Part shown: positions 36,512-46,962 of the stretch, one piece after another | Numbering within the stretch: position 1 is the stretch's first letter | How the letters are laid out: each line of letters begins with the position of its first letter | From: Acidithiobacillus marinus | GTDB taxonomy: Bacteria; Pseudomonadota; Gammaproteobacteria; Acidithiobacillales; Acidithiobacillaceae | DNA: 64,000 nucleotides | Direction: 5' to 3' | Assembly (NCBI RefSeq): GCF_002847505.1 | Contig: NZ_MXAV01000013.1 | Span: 62,001-126,000 of the forward strand | Translations under genes and position numbers: made by a program | The notes under the pieces: generated by a model | Told to the model about the DNA's origin: nothing | The model's input: the letters and a program-made list of their open reading frames with translations, nothing else | Database searches by the model: none

Positions 36512-37048
36512 ATGACCACATTGACGTTGACTTCCCCTTCAGAAGCTACCGGCGAACTTGCAGAGCTCTATGCAGCCATTGAAAAATCATTTGGTGGGGT
36601 TCCAGAAGGTCTGCAGTTATTTGGGGTCAGTCCCAAATTGCTGGCCATACAAATGCAGCTCCTGGGATATTTTGGTCAGCATCCCCGCCTTTCAGCCAAT
36701 TTCTTGGCCCTTTTGCGTTATGTGTTGTCAGAAGACGGTCATTGCCAGTTTTGCATCGGTTTTAATCAGTCGCTGCTGGTGAATGCGGGTATTGCCCCTG
36801 AAGCTATCCAGCAAGCACTGAAAAATCCGCGCAATGGCCCCCTTGAAGACCGTGAAAACCAGTTGCTGGATTATGTGCTGCGTGCCGTGCGCAATCCCCA
36901 TTCAGTCGAGGATGCAGAGGTGGATCAACTGCGCAAACTGGGCTGGACCGATCAGGATATTTTTGATGCGGTAGCGCATGGGGCGCAGCATAGTGCTGTA
37001 GATATCCTCTTTGAAACTTTTCGGGTAGCCCCTTTTTCGGCGAGTTGA
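36512..37048 (+). CDS. AhpD-like / carboxymuconolactone-decarboxylase family protein
   Basis: A 178-residue alpha-helical protein with the AhpD-type redox motif C-Q-F-C-I-G-F-N and a following helix (EAIQQALKN). In AhpD the CxxC plus a nearby His transfers electrons to peroxiredoxin; other members are uncharacterised peroxidase-like proteins. The ATG at 36512 has AGGAG upstream. The promoter contains the 18-bp motif shared with the cupin-ADH operon, suggesting a common stress signal. Confidence 0.83.
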   Translation: MTTLTLTSPSEATGELAELYAAIEKSFGGVPEGLQLFGVSPKLLAIQMQLLGYFGQHPRLSANFLALLRYVLSEDGHCQFCIGFNQSLLVNAGIAPEAIQQALKNPRNGPLEDRENQLLDYVLRAVRNPHSVEDAEVDQLRKLGWTDQDIFDAVAHGAQHSAVDILFETFRVAPFSAS

Positions 37049-37075
37049 TCAAGCTTCGGGTGAGCCAGCTTTGGG

Positions 37076-37104
37076 TTGACAACGGGGGAGTTCCTTTCTA
37101 GTCT
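37076..37104 (+). promoter_or_regulatory. promoter of the remnant-ArsR-MFS operon
   Basis: TTGACA (37076-37081), a 17-bp spacer and TAGTCT (37099-37104). The -10 overlaps the small palindrome CTAG-T-CTAG (37098-37106), a possible autoregulatory site for the ArsR-family gene downstream. It starts 28 bp after the AhpD-like stop. Confidence 0.5.
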
Positions 37105-37131
37105 AGGAGTTTCTAAATTTGTTAACTATTG

Positions 37132-37323
37132 ATGAGCTGGCCCATGTTTTTCAAACAGCGGAGCGATGTCGCCGGAATTTCAACCTACAGCTGCGGCGTT
37201 AAAGATTTTGCTGCAGCGGTAGCTGGAGTCGCTGGTGACGAATTGTCGTTTCCGATCGTCATGTTAATCGATACCCATGTTCATGCTGACGATGTGACCA
37301 CCAATCTAGGTGCGGCGGCATGA
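37132..37323 (+). pseudogene. short remnant resembling an MBL-fold hydrolase
   Basis: The 63-codon frame reads MFFKQRSDVAGISTYSCGV near its start and LIDTHVHADDVT near its end. These resemble the start of persulfide-dioxygenase/glyoxalase-II-type metallo-beta-lactamase proteins and their T-H-x-H-A-D-H motif, here with the last His changed to Asp and the intervening strands lost. The rest of the domain is missing. The stop overlaps the following ArsR gene (ATGA), so it may persist as a translated leader. It could also be an unrelated small protein. Confidence 0.4.
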
Positions 37324-37676
37324 GCGTGGAAACGGAGCGTTTTGCTCTGTTTGCCGAGGTCTTTGCGGCCCTGGCTCATCCCAAGCGTCTGGAGATCATC
37401 CATTATCTGGGAGAAAAGCAACATACAGCCGGGGAGTTGACGGAATTGACCGGCCTGTCCAAGGCCAATGTCTCTCAACATTTGAGTATTCTCAAGGCTC
37501 GTGGCCTGGTGCACTGTGACAAGTGTGGCACTTTCTGTCATTACCGCCTCACCAGCCCCGAGCTGCTGCAGACCTGTGAAATTGTACGGCATCTGATCCT
37601 TGAACAAATGGACCTGACCGTTGCCAGTCGGCAAAAACTGGCCGAGCTTGTCCCTTTACGCAAGCAACCGTCATGA
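37320..37676 (+). CDS. ArsR-family transcriptional regulator with four cysteines
   Basis: A 118-residue winged-helix regulator. The recognition helix is in TGLSKANVSQHLSILKARGLV. Cysteines C66, C69 and C73 lie in the wing (HCDKCGTFCHY) and C86 in the dimer helix. This cluster could bind a metal or sense sulfane sulfur, as related BigR/SqrR-type regulators do with two cysteines. It overlaps the upstream remnant and the downstream MFS gene by 4 bp each, so it probably controls that operon. Confidence 0.85.
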   Translation: MSVETERFALFAEVFAALAHPKRLEIIHYLGEKQHTAGELTELTGLSKANVSQHLSILKARGLVHCDKCGTFCHYRLTSPELLQTCEIVRHLILEQMDLTVASRQKLAELVPLRKQPS

Positions 37677-38932
37677 GTGCGGACCCGGCACTCGCCGTAC
37701 ACTATCAAAGGGGCATTGCCCAGAATCGTGCTCAGTTTCTGCTACAGACGGTGCAAGTGTTTTTTGTGGGGCTGATTATTGGTATGGAGCGCACCGTGCT
37801 CCCCGGACTTGCCCACAATTTTGGTGTAGATAAAGGTCAGTTTTTGTTTCTCGCCAGCTTCGTGATTTCTTTCGGCCTGGTCAAGGGTGCCTTGAATCTG
37901 GTGGCCGGTGCTCTCTCAGATGGTATGGGCCGCAAGCGAGTCTTGTTGCTGGGTTGGATGGCTGGCATCCCGATCCCCTTGCTGATCTTTTTTTCGCCCA
38001 ACTGGTGGTGGATCATTGCGGCCAACGTCTTTCTCGGGATCAACCAGGGTTTCACCTGGACCATGACGGTGACCAGTCAGATTGACCTGGCCGGTAGCCG
38101 CCAACGCGGCCTCGCCGTGGGCATCAATGAAGCTGCCGGTTATGTGGGCATGGGTCTGGCCGGTCTGAGCACCGGCTATCTGGCGGTTGCCTATGGTCCG
38201 CGCTGGGCCCTGTTAGGTTTTGGCCTGGCAGTCATTGCTCTGGCTTTGTTTCTATGCTTGCGGGTGCAGGATACCATTGCCTGGGTACGGGCCGAGCATG
38301 CTGCCCATCCTGGTTCTGCCCCAGCCTCCAGCGCGCCCTGGTGGCAGAGCTTCATCGCTGTCTCCTTCCAAAATCCGCGTTATCGCGCCCTCTGTCAGGC
38401 CGGAGTCGCTAACAAGGTGGCAGATACTCTGGTCTGGGTACTATTCCCTCTCTACTTTCTGCAGCATGCCTTGGGGGTGGTGGCCATCGGCTGGATCACT
38501 GGAACCTATGGAGCCGTTTGGGGACTTTCGCAACTCTGGACGGGACACCTGGCAGATCGAATCGGACGTAAGCTCCCCATTGTCTGCGGCTTTTTTCTGC
38601 TTTCGGCAGGGTTGGTGTTGACCGCACTGGTGCAGAGTTTTGTTGATTGGCTTGGCGCTGCAGCCATCATGGGCCTCGGCATGGCGTTGCTCTATCCCAA
38701 TCTGGTGACGGCCATGTCCGATACCGCTCCGCCCCTGGAACGTGGTCGCATTCTTGGAGTCTACCGCTATTGGCGGGATACGGGTTATGCCATCGGTGGA
38801 CTGTTGCTGGGCCTGGTCGCCCAGTGGAATGACAAAATTCTGCCCGCCATTTGGGTGACTGCCGGTATTGTCGCCTTGTCCGGGGTATGGATTGTCTTTG
38901 CAGTCCAGGAAACCTATACCCGAAAAATATGA
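37673..38932 (+). CDS. MFS transporter
   Basis: A 419-residue major-facilitator protein with 12 predicted helices. The loop 2/3 motif is present as GALSDGMGRKRVLLLG (G-x-x-x-D-x-x-G-R-K/R) and repeats in the second half as GHLADRIGRKLPI. The substrate is unknown. Coupling to an ArsR-family gene suggests efflux of whatever that regulator senses. Confidence 0.88.
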   Translation: MSADPALAVHYQRGIAQNRAQFLLQTVQVFFVGLIIGMERTVLPGLAHNFGVDKGQFLFLASFVISFGLVKGALNLVAGALSDGMGRKRVLLLGWMAGIPIPLLIFFSPNWWWIIAANVFLGINQGFTWTMTVTSQIDLAGSRQRGLAVGINEAAGYVGMGLAGLSTGYLAVAYGPRWALLGFGLAVIALALFLCLRVQDTIAWVRAEHAAHPGSAPASSAPWWQSFIAVSFQNPRYRALCQAGVANKVADTLVWVLFPLYFLQHALGVVAIGWITGTYGAVWGLSQLWTGHLADRIGRKLPIVCGFFLLSAGLVLTALVQSFVDWLGAAAIMGLGMALLYPNLVTAMSDTAPPLERGRILGVYRYWRDTGYAIGGLLLGLVAQWNDKILPAIWVTAGIVALSGVWIVFAVQETYTRKI

Positions 38933-39158: not shown

Positions 39159-39890
39159 ATGATGACTATGCTGCTTTTTTCCAGATCAGAAAGCGCCCTT
39201 ATGGAAGCCGTTGCCGACAATTTATTCCCCATCCTGCGCGAAACCTCACTGTTTTCTGCCTGGCCGGAAGACTTGCTGCATGCCTTGCTGCTACAAAGCA
39301 AAAAAGTCACCCTGGATTCCGGAGAGATTTTGTTTGTCGAGAAAGCCGCTGCGAGCGCTTTTTATCTGGTGCTTTCCGGTCGCATCCACCTGATTGCGGC
39401 GGCAAGCACCGGGCAGGAAAAAATTGTGGAAATCATTGAGCAGCATGACCTGTTTGCCGAAGCCGTCGCTTTTCTGGGTGGACGTTATCCGGTGACCGCT
39501 GCTGCGGACGGGAGTACAAGCGTTCTGGAAATTCCCCTCGCCCTGTTCCTGGAAATCCTGGAGCAAAAACCCCTGTTGATGCGTCAGATGTTGGCGCGTC
39601 TGAGTATGCGTCTGCATTTTCTGGTCAAGGAGCTGCGCCATCTCAGTGTTGAATCCGCCGAACAGCGCTTGGTCAGTTATTTGCTGGAATTGTGTCCACA
39701 GGCTAATGGTTCTGCAGTCATTGAATTTCCCACCAAAAAATCGGCGGTCGCCGCACGCTTGGGTCTGACCCCGGAAACTTTATCGCGGGTGCTGGCCCGC
39801 ATGCGTAAAGCCGGAGTGATAGAAATGCAGGGACGAACCATCCATGTGCCTGATCTGCAGGCCCTGGAACGCTGGGTGGCCGGTCATTGA
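39159..39890 (+). CDS. Crp/Fnr-family regulator (Dnr-like)
   Basis: A 243-residue regulator with an N-terminal cyclic-nucleotide-binding-type jelly roll (LDSGEILFVEKAAASAFYLVLSG shown by the motifs GEILF and YLVLSG) and a C-terminal HTH. The recognition helix has TPETLSRVLARM, the E-x-x-S-R pattern that reads Fnr-type TTGAT half-sites. The N-terminal Fe-S cysteines of Fnr are absent, so a Dnr-type NO-sensing or other role is more likely. A matching box lies upstream of the globin gene 3 kb away, and the intervening redox genes face it. Several ATGs cluster at 39159-39170; upstream in-frame codons back to 39030 look non-coding. Confidence 0.82.
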   Translation: MMTMLLFSRSESALMEAVADNLFPILRETSLFSAWPEDLLHALLLQSKKVTLDSGEILFVEKAAASAFYLVLSGRIHLIAAASTGQEKIVEIIEQHDLFAEAVAFLGGRYPVTAAADGSTSVLEIPLALFLEILEQKPLLMRQMLARLSMRLHFLVKELRHLSVESAEQRLVSYLLELCPQANGSAVIEFPTKKSAVAARLGLTPETLSRVLARMRKAGVIEMQGRTIHVPDLQALERWVAGH

Positions 39891-39895
39891 TCCGG

Positions 39896-40342
39896 TTATT
39901 CTGAACAACGCATGCATTGCACACCGTATCTTTTGATCCACTCTTCCAGTGCCGCGATGGCTACATTACCGGTGCTGACATTGTCGAGAGCATGTGCTGG
40001 ATCATCGGGTTTCACGCGAGCGATCCAGGCATCATTGTAGGGATCAATATTGATCAGGTGGGGATCTTCCAGCAGTTTTTCATTGCGGTCCATGACTTCA
40101 CCCGCAAAAGGCACCGGAACACCGCCTGCCCATTTGCCGCTCTCCAGGGTGGCCACATGCCGTCCGGCCTCCAGGTGTGTGCCGACTTTTTTGATGCGGG
40201 CTTTTTGCAGGCGGCCTGACATGGTCTGGGCGGGATCTGTGATTCCGATCGTCAAGGTACCATCCTCTTCGGGGCGTACCCACACATAATCCAGATCATA
40301 AAAAAGATCCTCCAGCAATTCGCAGCCGTGATATTCACTCAT
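39896..40342 (-). CDS. lipoyl-carrier (GcvH-like) protein with C-terminal CxxC
   Basis: A 148-residue GcvH-fold protein. The lipoylation lysine is in TLESGKWAGG, followed by PFAGEV, which is normal for lipoyl-domain hairpins. No other glycine-cleavage genes are nearby. The protein ends in C-M-R-C-S-E, an extra CxxC not expected in GcvH. It is the last gene of a minus-strand run with hemerythrin, thioredoxin and reductase genes. Stand-alone GcvH-like carriers also act in sulfur oxidation (LbpA of the sHdr pathway). In this setting a redox role is inferred. Confidence 0.8.
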   Translation of the reverse strand: MSEYHGCELLEDLFYDLDYVWVRPEEDGTLTIGITDPAQTMSGRLQKARIKKVGTHLEAGRHVATLESGKWAGGVPVPFAGEVMDRNEKLLEDPHLINIDPYNDAWIARVKPDDPAHALDNVSTGNVAIAALEEWIKRYGVQCMRCSE

Positions 40343-40800
40343 GATTCTGCCTCCGCCTCAAAATCGAGAATACGCCTTCCTGCAGCTTCACCATGATCGG
40401 TCAAGGCAGTTGCCAAAATTGGATAAAGTTCATTTTCTTCCTTGGCATCATGTTGTTTGAGAATGGTTTGTACGGTACTTAGAAGATCGTCAAAGGTTTC
40501 TGCGTCCTGCTCCTGAATAGCTTCCGCCATTTCCTCAAAAAAAATACGTAAATCCTGATGACCCTTGCGGAGGAGGGCGGTCAGGGATTGGGCTTCATCC
40601 CCTTTCTGGCGCTCAAAGGCCGGAAATAATGTGCTTTCTTCCACGGCCATATGGCCATCCACGATGCCATGGCGGAAGGTCTCCAGTAAATGCGCCGCTT
40701 CCGGCCATGCGCCTTGGCTCACCGCTTCTGCGCCTTGTTCCAGAAGCTGGTCCAGGCGTTCATGGTCGTGTTGCATGATCTGATCAATGGGTTCCATCAT
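40339..40800 (-). CDS. hemerythrin-like domain protein
   Basis: A 153-residue four-helix-bundle protein with the hemerythrin ligand pattern: HDHERLD, GHMAVEESTLFP (H-x-x-x-E), KGHQDL and QHDAKEENELYP. It would hold a non-heme di-iron site that binds O2 or NO or reacts with peroxides. The ATG at 40800 has GGAG upstream; a longer frame starts at 40863. The stop overlaps the GcvH-like gene by 4 bp. Confidence 0.88.
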   Translation of the reverse strand: MMEPIDQIMQHDHERLDQLLEQGAEAVSQGAWPEAAHLLETFRHGIVDGHMAVEESTLFPAFERQKGDEAQSLTALLRKGHQDLRIFFEEMAEAIQEQDAETFDDLLSTVQTILKQHDAKEENELYPILATALTDHGEAAGRRILDFEAEAES

Positions 40801-40876
40801 AATCTCCGATGTTGGTGCGATCCTGTGCGGTATGCGCGTGACCGAAGTGCGTTTCTTGAGCATTTGGATGTCATTG

Positions 40877-41122
40877 TTATGACGCTCCGAGCATTTTCAA
40901 CACGTCTCCCAAGGGTTGTGCGCCTACGGTTTTCAGGCTGCCATCCACGACAATGGCGGGGACGGTTTTAATGCGCAGGTTACTGACGATTTCCCGCCCC
41001 TCCCGTTCCGCGATATCCAGAACTTCCAGTTCCATGGGCACTTTTTCTGAAGCTTCCTTCCAGACCTTTTCAGCTTGCGGGCAAACGGGACACCATTTTG
41101 AAACAAGGACTTGTACTTTCAT
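40877..41122 (-). CDS. small thioredoxin-fold protein
   Basis: An 81-residue glutaredoxin/thioredoxin-like protein. The active site is W-C-P-V-C-P near residues 10-15 and the cis-proline is in TVPAIVV. Such small proteins reduce disulfides or transfer electrons to partners. It lies between the hemerythrin and reductase genes on the same strand. The start at 41122 is the only one that places the fold at the N-terminus; the longer frame is not supported. Confidence 0.86.
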   Translation of the reverse strand: MKVQVLVSKWCPVCPQAEKVWKEASEKVPMELEVLDIAEREGREIVSNLRIKTVPAIVVDGSLKTVGAQPLGDVLKMLGAS

Positions 41123-41165
41123 CTTGTGTACTCCTGAGTGGTTGTCATATAGCAACGCAGAATGA

Positions 41166-42149
41166 CTAGCCATTGGGTGCAAAGGCATCAAAGTGGATGT
41201 GTGCATGGGAGACCCCATGGGAGAGCAGCAGATCAATAGCCGCTTCGATCATGCCGGGGCTTCCGCAAAGATAGACTTCATGGTTTTGCCAGTGGCCTCG
41301 GGCGGCTACGCTGGGCAACAGTCGGCGTGCTCCGGTCCAATGGGTGTCTTCCATGTCGGAAATGGTGGGTGTCACGGTAATCTGAGGATATTGTTGTGCC
41401 CATTGCTGCAATTGATCGAGATGATAAAAATCCGCCTGTTTTTTGGCTCCGTAAAACAGATGAACAGGACGATTCTGACCCTGAAGAATACTTTCCTGAA
41501 TGATGGCTTCAATGGGAGCCAATCCGGTACCGGCGGCAATGCAGAGCATGGGCCTGTTCTGCTCCGGGTGGAGAGCGAAGTCTCCTTGTGGTGGCCCGAG
41601 CGTGATGCTGTCACCGCATTGGGCCTTTTTAAAAAGCCACTGACTGAACAGTCCTCCCGGAATTTCGCGGATATGAAAAACCAGCTCGCCATGATCCTGT
41701 GGTGGCGTAGCCATGGAATAAGAGCGCCACTGATCCTGATGCTCCGGGACAGCCATACGGGCATATTGGCCGGTACGATATGGATAGGCATTTTCCGGTT
41801 TCAAGGTTAATTCCAATACATTCCAGGCCAGCTTGTTCAAGCTGACTATGTGGCTATTCCAGATATTTCCGGAAATGACTTCAGCGCGCAGTCGCATAGG
41901 GCTACGTGGATAAAGCTTGCATAATATGCCCATGCCTGCAGCCCGTTCTGCGGGTGTCAAAAGCAGCGGCATAAATGGCCCCTGCTCACTCTCTCCAGAC
42001 AAAATGGTTCCCTTGCAATCTCCACAGGAACCGCTGGCGCAGCCATGTTTAATGGCCACATCATGGGCTTTGGCCGCTTCGACAATATTCTGATTTTCAT
42101 TGGCCATAAAACAGATGCCGGAGGGTTCCAGACAAATTTCATATTCCAT
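41166..42149 (-). CDS. [2Fe-2S] ferredoxin-NAD(P)H reductase (flavin oxidoreductase)
   Basis: A 327-residue electron-transfer protein. A plant-type ferredoxin domain (GCASGSCGDC with a later C in ILCKLYP) supplies a [2Fe-2S] cluster. An FAD domain follows with WRSYSMA, and an NAD(P) domain with AAGTGLAPIEA and LCGSPGMIEAA. The layout matches phenol-hydroxylase or methane-monooxygenase reductases. It follows the globin gene, so it may reduce the globin in place of the fused domain of flavohemoglobin. GAGG precedes the ATG. An intrinsic terminator lies just upstream. Confidence 0.88.
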   Translation of the reverse strand: MEYEICLEPSGICFMANENQNIVEAAKAHDVAIKHGCASGSCGDCKGTILSGESEQGPFMPLLLTPAERAAGMGILCKLYPRSPMRLRAEVISGNIWNSHIVSLNKLAWNVLELTLKPENAYPYRTGQYARMAVPEHQDQWRSYSMATPPQDHGELVFHIREIPGGLFSQWLFKKAQCGDSITLGPPQGDFALHPEQNRPMLCIAAGTGLAPIEAIIQESILQGQNRPVHLFYGAKKQADFYHLDQLQQWAQQYPQITVTPTISDMEDTHWTGARRLLPSVAARGHWQNHEVYLCGSPGMIEAAIDLLLSHGVSHAHIHFDAFAPNG

Positions 42150-42174
42150 CCATTGACCTCACTTCGTTTTCACC

Positions 42175-42226
42175 AAAAAAACGGCGCGGGCCAAAGTCGC
42201 AAAAAGGATCCCGGCCAAGCACCGTT
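42175..42226 (-). terminator. rho-independent terminator between globin and reductase
   Basis: On the minus strand AACGGTGC-TT-GGCC pairs with GGCC-CGCGCCGTT, leaving a small internal bulge, across a roughly 20-nt loop. It is followed directly by seven T (bases 42175-42181 are A on the plus strand). It starts about 11 nt after the globin stop and ends 26 nt before the reductase start. It should end most globin transcripts or act as an attenuator. Confidence 0.72.
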
Positions 42227-42236
42227 TTGTGTTAAA

Positions 42237-42698
42237 TCAAACAGCAGGAGGGACGTCGTCAATGGTTACCGGCACAAAGCGGGAAGGGGCCATTGCTTCA
42301 TAGGCCGCCTCAATGCATACCGTAGAAGCCAGGTTGTAGGCCTCAATCCAGGATTCCGCCATTTCCCGGGTCCAGGCAGCACCCAGAAAATGCTTCAGGG
42401 TATTGAGCAGGCTTTTGCCGACGATGGGATAATGTTCCGGGCGAGTATCATACTTGATATGGGCAATCCCGAGATCTTTCAAATAGGGCACCAGTACTTC
42501 CAGATTGTCGATGCTGGTCGCAATCAGAATGACAGAGTTAAACAAACGGATACGCTGCTCGGTCATGTCTCCGGGAAACATTTTCCGGACTTCCGGAAAA
42601 TGCGTGAACATATAATCATAAAAATGCTCAGCTACCTGTACACCGAGATCCTTTACAGCAGCGCCACTGGATTGAATCAATTGAATATTGATGGTCAT
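42237..42698 (-). CDS. single-domain globin (bacterial hemoglobin type)
   Basis: A 153-residue globin resembling the heme domain of flavohemoglobin and Vitreoscilla hemoglobin. The proximal His is in RPEHYPIVGKSLL, a Phe/Tyr-rich N-half holds FYDYMFTHFPEVRKMFP, and the C-terminal helix is W-I-E-A-Y. No reductase domain is fused. It likely binds O2 and NO and may act as NO dioxygenase with the separate reductase downstream. AAGGAG precedes the ATG. An Fnr/Dnr-like box lies 89 bp upstream. Confidence 0.92.
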   Translation of the reverse strand: MTINIQLIQSSGAAVKDLGVQVAEHFYDYMFTHFPEVRKMFPGDMTEQRIRLFNSVILIATSIDNLEVLVPYLKDLGIAHIKYDTRPEHYPIVGKSLLNTLKHFLGAAWTREMAESWIEAYNLASTVCIEAAYEAMAPSRFVPVTIDDVPPAV

Positions 42699-42786
42699 GA
42701 CAAATTACTCCTTGTGCTTGGGGTGTGGATGGACTGTGCTTGACGCGCTACGTGGTGAAAGATAAAGCAGGTTGTGCAGCTATTCC

Positions 42787-42800
42787 TTGATTTCGGTCAA
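42787..42800 (-). promoter_or_regulatory. Fnr/Dnr-type box upstream of the globin gene
   Basis: TTGAT-TTCG-GTCAA differs from the TTGAT-N4-ATCAA consensus at one base. It lies 89 bp upstream of the globin ATG in a 123-bp gap. The other flanking gene ends here, so the site can only serve the globin operon. The Crp/Fnr protein encoded at 39159 has the E-x-x-S-R recognition residues expected for this box. Confidence 0.72.
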
Positions 42801-42821: not shown

Positions 42822-43994
42822 TTACAGGTTCTTCTGGATAATGCGCCGGGCGCGATTTTGCGCGCGTTGTACTTCATCCTGGTATATGGATGTTTCATAT
42901 CCCTGTTTCGGAGTGCTGGTCAGAGGTTGCAGAACCGAATGCGGATGCTCGGGCTGCCAGTGGACTTCGGCAATCATGGAGAGCCCGGGCCGGAGTGGGT
43001 GTTTGCGCAATTCTGCAGCAGGTATGGCAATACGTACCGGCACCCGTTCCACAATATGGATATAATTCCCGGTGGCATTTTGTGGCGGCAGAATACTGAA
43101 AGCGCTCCCCGCTCCGGGAAGCAGACCCAGGACGGTGCCATGAAAATGCACAGAACCTCCGTAATAATCACTGGTCAATTGTACCGATTGTCCGGGGTAG
43201 ATATGACGCATGACGGTTTCCTTGAAATTGGCGACTACCCATAAATCGTTCAAGGGCACGACGGAGAACAGGCGCTGACCATTTTTAACTTTTAACCCTG
43301 GATAGGCAGAGCGCTGGGCGATAAAACCCGAAATGGGGGCGCGGATCAGGTGACGTTGCCAGGTGATGTCGGCCTGCTCATATGCCGCAACAGCCTGCTG
43401 CACCAGAGGATTGTCATAAAGCGTGGTGCCTGCTACCAGGGCTTCAGCGCCTTGCAGTTTGGCTTGCGCTTGTGCCACGGCTGCGCTTGCGGCAGTGATT
43501 TCTTGTCGGGTATTTTCAAGGCGGATCATAGAAACGGCGCCACTGGGCAGAGATTGCTGATAGCGTGTTAAGTCTATCTGCAGTTGGCGCAGCGTGGCTT
43601 TCTTGGCCTGGATATTTTGTTGCAGAGCATGGACCTCCGCGAAATCCTGGCGCACTTGTCGTACTGTCGCGGCCAGATGGGCTTCTGCTTTTTTCATCTG
43701 CAGCCGGGAATGACTGCTTTGCAAGATGGCCAGTACCTGACCGGCATGCACAAATTCCGTATTTTCTGCCAGCACCTGCTGGATAGTGCCCTCTGACAAA
43801 CTGTCCACGGGGCTGATATTGCCGTTCACGTAGGCATCATTGGTTTCAATCCAGTACTGCCCCCGTAAAAACCACCAGAAGATACCGATGAGGCTAACTA
43901 GGAAAAGGAGGATGGCAACCCCGAGCAGCCCTCTTCGGCGCTTTTTTTCCAAAGGGTGTTTTTCAGAATCCGGGACAAGCTGCGCTGTACTCAT
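42822..43994 (-). CDS. membrane-fusion protein of an EmrAB-type pump
   Basis: A 390-residue HlyD/EmrA-family adaptor bridging an MFS pump and an outer-membrane channel. One N-terminal membrane helix (about 22-44) is followed by a lipoyl-like half (WIETNDAYVNGNISPVDS), a long coiled coil (about 95-190), the second lipoyl half (LIRAPISGFIAQRSAYPG) and a beta-barrel region. It is the third gene of emrB-tolC-emrA on the minus strand, overlapping the channel gene by 4 bp. Confidence 0.9.
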   Translation of the reverse strand: MSTAQLVPDSEKHPLEKKRRRGLLGVAILLFLVSLIGIFWWFLRGQYWIETNDAYVNGNISPVDSLSEGTIQQVLAENTEFVHAGQVLAILQSSHSRLQMKKAEAHLAATVRQVRQDFAEVHALQQNIQAKKATLRQLQIDLTRYQQSLPSGAVSMIRLENTRQEITAASAAVAQAQAKLQGAEALVAGTTLYDNPLVQQAVAAYEQADITWQRHLIRAPISGFIAQRSAYPGLKVKNGQRLFSVVPLNDLWVVANFKETVMRHIYPGQSVQLTSDYYGGSVHFHGTVLGLLPGAGSAFSILPPQNATGNYIHIVERVPVRIAIPAAELRKHPLRPGLSMIAEVHWQPEHPHSVLQPLTSTPKQGYETSIYQDEVQRAQNRARRIIQKNL

Positions 43995-45421
43995 TCTGCT
44001 TTGCCTTTAGTCGCATATCCGCCTCCCAGCGCCTCATGTAGTAATGTCCAGGATTGGGCATTTTGGATCTGCAAAAGGAGTTTATGGCTTTGCATGGTTG
44101 TTTCCTGAATACGGGTTTGATAAACGGCCATTTTATTGGCGGTTCCTGCACGAAAAGCCGCCTCAGCCAGGACTCGGCTCTGTCTGGCAGCCTGCATGAT
44201 CTGCGCTTGTTCATGGAGCTGCTGATGAATTTTTTTCCAGCTCGCCAGGTAACGGGCAATTTCCCGCACGGCGCTGAGGATGTTCTGGCGATAATGATCC
44301 TGTGCGGCCATATACACGGCATTTTGTGCCTTGAGTCGGGCGCGGAGTTTTCCGCCTTCAAAAACCGGCAAGGTGATCACCGGACCCACCGCATGGGCCA
44401 GATTCCCCGGGCTGAATAAATCACCCAGATCAATGCTGTTCCAGCCCGAAAACAGGGCGATATTCACATCCGGATAAAAAGCCGCCCGCGCCGCCTTGAT
44501 CTGTTGGGCGGCGATTGTCATTTCCCAACGGGCCGCGACAATGTCGGGGCGGTGAGTGATGAGGCGCAAGGGAAGATCCCGAGGAATGGGCATCCGCGAC
44601 AGCTCCGGTAGCGGAGCGATGGGGATCTGCTCTCCCCAATCAGGTCCGTGTCCGGCCAGAGCCGCTAGAATATAGCGTTGCCGGGCAACAGCGTCCTGTA
44701 ATTGAGCGCTATTTTGTCGCGCTTCGGCGTAGCGTTCTTCCTGAGCAAAAACCGGACGCGCATCGGCCAGACCATCATGCCAGCGTTGATTCTCCAGCAG
44801 AAGCAGGGACTTTTGCAGGTTTTCCAGATGCTGTGCCAGATGCAGACGTTGGGATGTGCCGATCAGCAGAAAATAATGCCAGGTCAGTTGTGATTCCAGT
44901 TGCAGTTTTGCTTCGGCATAATCGGCTTGGTGCACCCGCACTTTTCCTATGGTGGCACGGATCTGGTCGCTGTCCCGACCCCATAAATCCAGGTGATAAC
45001 GCAGCTCCAGCGGGTTGATCTCGGCATAGTCAAAATGCTGGCCATTGGCTTGGAGATGGAGTCCCTGTTTAGAAAAATACTGCCGGGTGAAAGACGCACT
45101 GGCATTCCATTGTGGAAGAAGGGCGGCATGTTGTTCCGCAGCAAAGGCTTTTGCCTTGAGAATGCGGGCGCTGACCATCTGCAGCGAGGGGTTATTCCGC
45201 AACGCCGCATCAATCAGTTGATTGAGGGCAGGCAATTGCGCCTTTTCCCACCACCGGGATTCGGGCCATGGACCCGGATGAATGCCATCATGCCCCTCAG
45301 CTTGAGCCAATACTTGACGGATTTGCGGAGCATGGGCCAGGTGCTTGTTGGGCAGATGTTCTGGCAGGCGCGCGCAGGCGCTGAGTAACAGGCAGGATAG
45401 AAGCAGAAAAAATTTATGCAT
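43991..45421 (-). CDS. outer-membrane efflux lipoprotein (NodT/OprM type)
   Basis: A 476-residue TolC-superfamily protein. The signal peptide ends in a lipobox (LLSAC, Cys16), so it is a lipoprotein as in OprM. Two structural repeats of coiled-coil and beta strands are visible, e.g. DAALRNNPSLQMVSARI and ITHRPDIVAARWEM. It would form the channel for the pump encoded on either side. Its ATG shares one base with the emrB-type stop (TGATG). Confidence 0.9.
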   Translation of the reverse strand: MHKFFLLLSCLLLSACARLPEHLPNKHLAHAPQIRQVLAQAEGHDGIHPGPWPESRWWEKAQLPALNQLIDAALRNNPSLQMVSARILKAKAFAAEQHAALLPQWNASASFTRQYFSKQGLHLQANGQHFDYAEINPLELRYHLDLWGRDSDQIRATIGKVRVHQADYAEAKLQLESQLTWHYFLLIGTSQRLHLAQHLENLQKSLLLLENQRWHDGLADARPVFAQEERYAEARQNSAQLQDAVARQRYILAALAGHGPDWGEQIPIAPLPELSRMPIPRDLPLRLITHRPDIVAARWEMTIAAQQIKAARAAFYPDVNIALFSGWNSIDLGDLFSPGNLAHAVGPVITLPVFEGGKLRARLKAQNAVYMAAQDHYRQNILSAVREIARYLASWKKIHQQLHEQAQIMQAARQSRVLAEAAFRAGTANKMAVYQTRIQETTMQSHKLLLQIQNAQSWTLLHEALGGGYATKGKAE

Positions 45422-46962
45422 CAGAGGTCAACCAGTTCTTCTATGGCGCGGCGCAGACGAATATCCGGTTCTGCGTAAACCACAGCCTTGCTGAGTAGCA
45501 AGAGACCGGCCCCTATCAAAAATCCCCAGGCGGCGATGTAAAAAATCTCATTGAAAGCCAACATGGCCGCATGCTGCTTTATCAGCGCTGCTGTGCGTAT
45601 ATGGCCGATCAGCGTACCGGGTAAGTCCGCAATGCTGCTTTTCCCTTCGGCCAGAAAATGCGCATGGAAAATCATGCGCCGGTCAAATAAGGTGGCAATA
45701 AGAGGAATGCCCATAGCCTGTCCACTCAGGCGTAATACATTCAAGAGCACTGTTCCGCGTATTTCGGCCGGACCCGATAATCCCGACAAGGCAATGGCAA
45801 TGATGGAGGGAAACAAACTGCCCAGGAAAATGCCTACAAATGCCTGGGGCCAGAGCAACTCGGTGAAGGACGCCGGATGATTATAGGAAGCCACCCAAAA
45901 ACTTGCGGCTGAAAATCCTGTCAGAGAGAGGACAGCCAGGATGCGGGCATCCAGGCGATTCAACAAGCGCTGGGTCAGCATGAAGCTGATTTTTGAGAAA
46001 ATGGCCATAGGTAATATCAACAGGCCCACCATCCAGGCGCTATAGCCCATCACTAACTGAAAGCCGACAATGTAAATGGCGATGCTGCCCTGAAAAAACA
46101 AAGCGGTGAAAAACAGCACCACACTGCCTATCAGAAAATTGCGCCGTTTCAGAAGGCGCAGATCCAGGAGGGGTTGGGGGGTGTACCATTCGGCGATAAT
46201 CAACAGCAGCAGAGCGATGAGGCTGATAATGCCAAGGAAAATAATGGTCTGAGAGCGCCACCAACTGAGGGTTTCGCCGATGTTCAGGGCGGATTCTCCG
46301 GCAGCCAGAGCGATGACCAGGAAGATCAGGCCGCGCCAGTCCAGTGCTGGATGGCGATGTTCCATTTCACGCTCAAAAAGCAGAATCATGCTGACCAGGG
46401 CTACGGTAATGGCAATGGGTATGTTTACATAAAACAGCCAGCGCCAACCGATGGTATCCGTAATCCAGCCGCCGATGACCGGGCCGAGGGTGAACGGGGT
46501 AAGGGCAGCAATTCCCCACAGACCCAGTCCGATATTGCGGCGCTGAGGATGGTAGTGGCGCAGAATAATCTGCAAGGAAACGGGAATGGTCAGTCCTCCC
46601 ACATAACCCTGAACAATCCGTGCGATCAGGAAGCTGTCATAGTGATTGGTGACGGCACATACGCCTGAAGCCAGGGCGAACATGACAAAAGCCGCCGTCA
46701 GAACACGCATTTCCCCCCAGCGATGTAATAACCAGGGCGATGTGGGAAAGGCCAGGGCCATGGCCAGAAAAAAATCAGCCTGTGTCCAGTCGGCAAAATC
46801 GGGGTTGACCCCTAAACTACCCGCAACATGGGGGATCATGGGCAGATAGGCGCCGGTATTGAAGAGCACCAGGAAATGTCCCAGACCAATGACCAGATTC
46901 AGCAGCACTACCATGCCGGTACTCAACGGAGAAACTGTCTGGGCGTTTTGAGGAAAGGTCAT
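45421..46962 (-). CDS. DHA2-family MFS drug transporter (EmrB type)
   Basis: A 513-residue inner-membrane pump with about 14 helices, as in EmrB/QacA. Motif C-like and DHA2 signatures appear around RIVQGYVGGLTIPVS and GPVIGGWITDTIGWRWLFYVNIP. It is the first gene of the three-part pump operon. The ATG at 46962 is chosen; an upstream TTG at 46995 has no better ribosome-binding site. A LysR gene diverges from it, as is usual for regulated efflux. Confidence 0.9.
   Translation of the reverse strand: MTFPQNAQTVSPLSTGMVVLLNLVIGLGHFLVLFNTGAYLPMIPHVAGSLGVNPDFADWTQADFFLAMALAFPTSPWLLHRWGEMRVLTAAFVMFALASGVCAVTNHYDSFLIARIVQGYVGGLTIPVSLQIILRHYHPQRRNIGLGLWGIAALTPFTLGPVIGGWITDTIGWRWLFYVNIPIAITVALVSMILLFEREMEHRHPALDWRGLIFLVIALAAGESALNIGETLSWWRSQTIIFLGIISLIALLLLIIAEWYTPQPLLDLRLLKRRNFLIGSVVLFFTALFFQGSIAIYIVGFQLVMGYSAWMVGLLILPMAIFSKISFMLTQRLLNRLDARILAVLSLTGFSAASFWVASYNHPASFTELLWPQAFVGIFLGSLFPSIIAIALSGLSGPAEIRGTVLLNVLRLSGQAMGIPLIATLFDRRMIFHAHFLAEGKSSIADLPGTLIGHIRTAALIKQHAAMLAFNEIFYIAAWGFLIGAGLLLLSKAVVYAEPDIRLRRAIEELVDL

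Follow-up and report, generated by a model that had tools for sequence, protein, structure and literature searches.

Gene layout of the locus

The window (the whole stretch of Acidithiobacillus marinus DNA that was analysed, 64,000 nucleotides) carries a Crp/Fnr gene on the plus strand, tail to tail with a five-gene minus-strand operon in the order globin, reductase, CPVC thioredoxin, hemerythrin and GcvH-fold lipoyl protein. This cluster had been described in the initial annotation, and all six genes were confirmed at the same positions by Pfam and NCBIfam. The features are as follows (positions are those of the window):

39201–39890, plus strand: DNR-like Crp/Fnr regulator, 229 aa (cNMP_binding and HTH_Crp_2)
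39896–40342, minus strand: LbpA-type lipoate-binding protein ("Lbp3"), 148 aa (GCV_H fold, below the GcvH cut-offs)
40339–40800, minus strand: single-domain hemerythrin (HHE), 153 aa (PF01814, E 2.7e-17)
40877–41122, minus strand: small thioredoxin with a CPVC motif, 81 aa (Thioredoxin_3, E 5.2e-13)
41166–42149, minus strand: BenC/MmoC-type NAD(P)H reductase, 327 aa (Fer2, FAD_binding_6, NAD_binding_1)
42237–42698, minus strand: single-domain globin of the flavohemoglobin/VHb class, 153 aa (PF00042)
42787–42800, no strand: DNR/FNR-type box TTGATTTCGGTCAA, ∼90 bp before the globin start

For the regulator, an alternative in-frame ATG is present at 39159 (the start given initially), and the hemerythrin gene could begin farther upstream, with an ATG at 40863. 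The TTGATTTCGGTCAA box sits in the emrA/globin intergenic space.

Directly upstream of the globin gene lies an efflux operon (EmrA, outer-membrane factor and EmrB; 42822–46962, minus strand) with a divergent LysR gene. An EmrA–EmrB operon occupies this position in many relatives of the genus; in other genera a divergent crp gene is found instead. Before crp, the plus strand of the window (36515–38932) encodes an AhpD-like peroxidase-related protein, an ArsR regulator and an MFS transporter, and the ArsR–MFS pair was seen again near the module in loci L096, L107, L218 and L219.

Globin and reductase

The globin matched the Hmp globin-domain profile with 96 bits, and its closest solved globin was VHb (1vhb). 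Pocket residues were placed by alignment to VHb and related globins; B10 Tyr27, CD1 Phe41, E7 Gln48, E11 Leu52, F8 His80 and G5 Tyr90 were the same in each of 18 family sequences. At H23, all 18 have Ala132 in place of the Glu that belongs to the flavohemoglobin His-Tyr-Glu set, so the triad is incomplete. The reductase consists of an N-terminal [2Fe-2S] domain followed by FAD and NAD domains, with 5ogx and 1krh as relatives. It corresponds to the FAD/NAD(P)H module of a flavohemoglobin, but is a protein in its own right and has the [2Fe-2S] domain in addition; globin and reductase are two genes, not a single-chain fusion. Fused flavohemoglobins above the NF009805 cut-off were found in none of the 29 Acidithiobacillaceae genomes.

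The proposal of a flavohemoglobin in two parts is partly supported, by the gene layout, by the lack of a fused Hmp in the family and by the pocket residues; the missing H23 Glu speaks against it. Because the NO dioxygenase pocket residues are invariant and the partner is a BenC/MmoC-type reductase, the globin and the separate reductase are, on balance, likely to form an NO dioxygenase even without H23 Glu.

Lipoyl protein, thioredoxin and hemerythrin

In the lipoyl protein the lysine motif reads ESGKWAGG, and Cys7, Cys143 and Cys146 are present. A lipoyl lysine and N- and C-terminal cysteines define LbpA as against GcvH (PMC6067878). These cysteines and the lysine motif (ESGKW) were kept in 33/33 family orthologues aligned, and the cysteines and an ES[GS]KW motif in 16 proteins from outside the family. 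In the tree, Lbp3 was grouped with LbpA and apart from GcvH; bootstrap support was 100 for the branch that separates GcvH and 73 for the Lbp3 clade. Its identity with the LbpA proteins of the family is 40–46%. The carrier is therefore of the LbpA type, a third paralogue besides LbpA1 and LbpA2, and is predicted to be lipoylated. LbpA1 and LbpA2 are encoded in the sHdr cluster of the source genome; Lbp3 lies outside the hdr cluster, with the thioredoxin, hemerythrin and globin genes. Assignment as GcvH was rejected (74 bits against the TIGR00527 cut-off of 115.85; motif ESGKW, not ESVKA).

The ligand residues of the hemerythrin are conserved in its orthologues, and a CPxC motif was found in nearly all complete thioredoxin orthologues. 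Identification of the hemerythrin as RIC/YtfE was rejected (24 bits against cut-offs of 204.7 and 254). The initial annotation held that most types of NO-reactive protein are gathered here. The genes are indeed present, but the hemerythrin is not RIC/YtfE, and the thioredoxin and the lipoyl protein are not established as NO-reactive.

Regulator and DNR/FNR-type box

The TTGAT-N4-GTCAA box that had been noticed before the globin gene proved to be a family-wide feature: an exact TTGAY-N4-RTCAA box was found 76–140 bp upstream of the globin in 35/35 Acidithiobacillaceae globin loci, despite differing upstream genes (emrA, divergent crp or hemerythrin). The chance expectation for this pattern was estimated at ∼0.001 per 350 bp. 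In loci in which the thioredoxin gene has been relocated beside crp (L107, L108, L126 and L131) it has a box of its own. The source genome contains 18 boxes, against three for a reversed control pattern. A wider regulon in this genome was considered and set aside: most of the sites that were read are intragenic; among them, only those near mraZ-like and methyltransferase-like genes looked intergenic beyond the globin.

The regulator lacks the N-terminal cysteine cluster of Fnr, as had been remarked, and its recognition helix PETLSRVLARM is of the FNR-type ExxSR form. Its best solved relatives were 3fx3 and 3h3z, and Pseudomonas aeruginosa DNR (3dkw) was matched at E 3.5e-31. The regulator, first suggested to be of the Fnr/Dnr type, is thus DNR-like. 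The source genome encodes a second Crp with a CxxC motif and a similar recognition helix, and because of it the pairing of the box with the adjacent Crp is a prediction. The adjacent Crp is the most likely regulator acting at the box, where it would sense NO and activate transcription.

Distribution in the Acidithiobacillaceae and nitrogen context

The globin was matched in 26/29 Acidithiobacillaceae genomes, and in most cases the reductase gene follows it immediately. Two sub-modules travel separately, globin–reductase and thioredoxin–hemerythrin–Lbp (the latter in L109–L111, L121 and L133–L135). One complete genome (G016) has three globin–reductase and four Lbp copies (L118, L119, L120 and L121), which derive in part from a 12 kb segmental duplication with 98.3% identity. 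A second globin, 37–39% identical, was seen in two Acidithiobacillus genomes (L139, 128–514; L140, 7703–8089), and no reductase was detected beside it. In L124 (7453–8664) and L125 (6847–8058) the globin–reductase pair is followed by an AIF/HcaD-like ferredoxin reductase and a DUF488 protein instead of the thioredoxin–hemerythrin–Lbp genes; the AIF/HcaD-like gene matches the COG0446 gene of a prediction from 2005 (PMC1274295).

In the loci of seven relatives, crp is followed by genes for an NrtA-like protein, a NarK-type transporter and a porin, and in four of these also by nirB. On a contig of Ca. Methylacidiphilaceae (L184, 2020–2472), a 68% identical globin gene stands directly after nirB–nirD. 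The nitrate/nitrite neighbours and the nirBD–globin order support a function connected with NO. No NIR_SIR nitrite/sulfite reductase match was obtained in the source genome; its own nitrite reductase was accordingly discarded as the NO source, and NO would have to come from outside or by another route. The globin is also present in Leptospirillum-like Nitrospirae, where its gene generally lacks an upstream box. When a close reductase was sought in these Nitrospirae and in Methylacidiphilaceae, only distant FNR-fold proteins were found.

The Lbp–thioredoxin–hemerythrin module outside the family

Proteins of the Lbp3 type were found in 18/369 genomes of the class Gammaproteobacteria. Sixteen Lbp3 loci lie outside the Acidithiobacillaceae, in about 13 other gammaproteobacterial genera. 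The thioredoxin gene is adjacent in 14 of the 16, hemerythrin genes are near in 11 and a crp gene is near in nine. These loci (244 kb) contain 18 boxes, mostly directly before module genes, against none for the reversed pattern used as control. A single box serves the divergent globin and Lbp3 genes of L219; a truncated globin occurs in L220, and a lipoate-protein ligase gene beside crp in L223. A small COX1/NnrS-like membrane protein is added in some loci, and in L229 (8236–8937) and L232 (8095–8790), beside COX1/NnrS-like proteins, the thioredoxin forms one chain with a membrane domain that is similar to the C-terminal half of NnrS, though below the Pfam cut-off.

Hemerythrins fused to DUF2249 or DUF1971 were observed beside Lbp–thioredoxin genes in L225 (6371–7138), L228 (2626–3318) and L232 (9768–10643).

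In the literature searched, neither a paper linking hemerythrin with lipoate-binding proteins nor a description of the Lbp–thioredoxin–hemerythrin extension was found; as far as this literature shows, the extension is apparently undescribed. We read it as part of a predicted DNR-type nitrosative-stress regulon, possibly as its arm for denitrosating thiols.

Proposed function

The interpretation starts from the gene content, the conservation of genes and box across the family, and the independent recurrence of the lipoyl–thioredoxin–hemerythrin arm beside the same type of box and regulator. The operon is quite probably a nitrosative-stress operon of the DNR type. We infer the following course of events. 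Build-up of NO, for example from acidified nitrite, would be sensed by the DNR-type regulator, which would activate the operon at the TTGAY-N4-RTCAA box. In a first arm, the globin would bind O2 and convert NO to nitrate, while the [2Fe-2S]/FAD reductase would hand electrons from NAD(P)H to the globin heme, so that the job of a flavohemoglobin would be done by two proteins. In a second arm, the LbpA-type protein, in its lipoylated form, and the CPVC thioredoxin may repair nitrosated thiols, and the hemerythrin may serve as an NO/O2-binding diiron protein. The two-arm NO defence as a whole is somewhat favoured. Counted against it are the missing H23 Glu, the lack of a NIR_SIR match in the source genome, the second Crp with its similar helix, the NnrS similarity below the Pfam cut-off, and the Leptospirillum-like globins that have neither a box nor a close reductase.

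The second arm is the more speculative. Thioredoxin and lipoic acid are known to catalyse denitrosation (as cited in PMC9598160). On account of this activity our preferred, though speculative, reading is that protein-bound lipoate and thioredoxin would denitrosate thiols. It is likewise possible, though far from assured, that lipoyl carrier, CPxC thioredoxin and hemerythrin constitute a conserved gammaproteobacterial system under control of the DNR box that repairs nitrosated thiols or handles NO in some other way, and that this system was merged with the two-part flavohemoglobin in Acidithiobacillus.

Alternative explanations

The globin and the hemerythrin could instead bind O2 for capture or for control of reactive oxygen species at low oxygen or in biofilms, with the reductase keeping the heme ferrous and the box signalling low oxygen, not NO. 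Vitreoscilla hemoglobin under FNR is the model for such an arrangement, and the relationship of the globin to VHb fits it. A study of pyrite biofilms of A. ferrooxidans found the largest increase of any protein for a globin; its authors explained this globin as a means of O2/ROS control, but proposed NO dioxygenase activity as well. From gene order and position in L125, the biofilm proteins appear to be the globin of this cluster and its downstream partner. The regulator without Fnr cysteines, the nitrate/nitrite neighbours, the nirBD–globin order and the NnrS-like partners of the Lbp module speak against it; we regard this explanation as rather unlikely.

Alternatively, the thioredoxin, hemerythrin and Lbp3 might form a sulfur-carrier module, in which a third LbpA passes sulfane sulfur or electrons to sulfur enzymes and stands next to the globin by chance or through co-occurring stress. 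The LbpA cysteines and lysine motif of Lbp3 would suit this role, LbpA1 and LbpA2 are encoded in the sHdr cluster of the same genome, and a rhodanese-like gene flanks some stand-alone Lbp copies. A gene that we take to be of the TauE type also flanks some of these copies and was counted in the same direction. LbpA proteins are, moreover, known from sulfur oxidation (PMC6067878). Against this, the DNR-type box, Crp, hemerythrins and globins recur around Lbp3 in about 13 other genera, and no sHdr genes were recognised in the 16 outside loci, which are partly annotated. A sulfur-carrier function is unlikely.

That the split is only apparent, with programmed stop-codon readthrough yielding a fused globin–reductase, is extremely improbable: the two genes share a frame in the window and in several relatives, with a single stop between them in L124, but the frame offset varies among relatives (0, 1 or 2), which rules out family-wide readthrough, and additional stops and altered linkers are frequent among them.

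Significance

If the two-arm NO defence is correct, acidophiles exposed to NO formed from acid nitrite rely on a flavohemoglobin in two parts together with a lipoate/thioredoxin arm, and protein-bound lipoate, with its roles in central metabolism and in sulfur oxidation, would gain a third one in nitrosative stress. Such a defence may also help to explain why a globin showed the largest increase in the pyrite biofilms of A. ferrooxidans. The Lbp–thioredoxin–hemerythrin genes under a DNR-type box are a defined and testable gene set, present in about 13 gammaproteobacterial genera outside the Acidithiobacillaceae.

Comparison with known systems

The cluster shares globin-domain residues and an FAD/NAD module with E. 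coli Hmp, and differs from it in being made up of two proteins, in the BenC/MmoC-type reductase with its N-terminal [2Fe-2S] domain and in the missing H23 Glu. A genetically tested two-part NO detoxifier is known from the Bradyrhizobium japonicum narK-bjgb-flp-nasC genes, in which the single-domain globin Bjgb works with the separate flavin reductase Flp next to nitrate assimilation genes (PMC4724949). Unlike the cluster described here, bjgb–flp is under NasS–NasT and has no DNR box, Flp also feeds NasC, and no Lbp, thioredoxin or hemerythrin is reported with it (PMC4724949).

In Campylobacter jejuni, a single-domain globin is likewise paired with a regulator of the Crp/Fnr family, NssR activating Cgb against NO; the box is different (TTAACnnnnGTTAA), and no linked reductase is described in the accounts cited in PMC1274295 and PMC3820574. 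The NO-controlled Legionella operon of GlbN and an FNR-type ferredoxin reductase also keeps globin and reductase separate, but its globin is truncated and its control is by NsrR (as cited in PMC3820574). With LbpA1 and LbpA2 of sHdr sulfur oxidation, Lbp3 shares the GcvH fold, the lipoyl-lysine motif and the N- and C-terminal cysteines (PMC6067878); unlike them, it forms a separate clade and is encoded outside the hdr cluster, with thioredoxin and hemerythrin under a DNR-type box.

The closest precedent is the prediction by Rodionov et al. (2005; PMC1274295) of an A. ferrooxidans dnr / cgb–COG0543–COG0446 operon with a DNR site for NO detoxification. It agrees with the present cluster in the DNR-type regulator, the single-domain globin, the FAD/NAD reductase, the candidate DNR site and the genus. 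Since it was already predicted there, the core (DNR, cgb, reductase and DNR site) is not new. The third gene of that operon encodes an AIF-like reductase (compare L124 and L125), and the thioredoxin–hemerythrin–Lbp genes are not mentioned. Beyond that prediction, the box is found here to be conserved in 35 loci, and the module has been followed outside the family.
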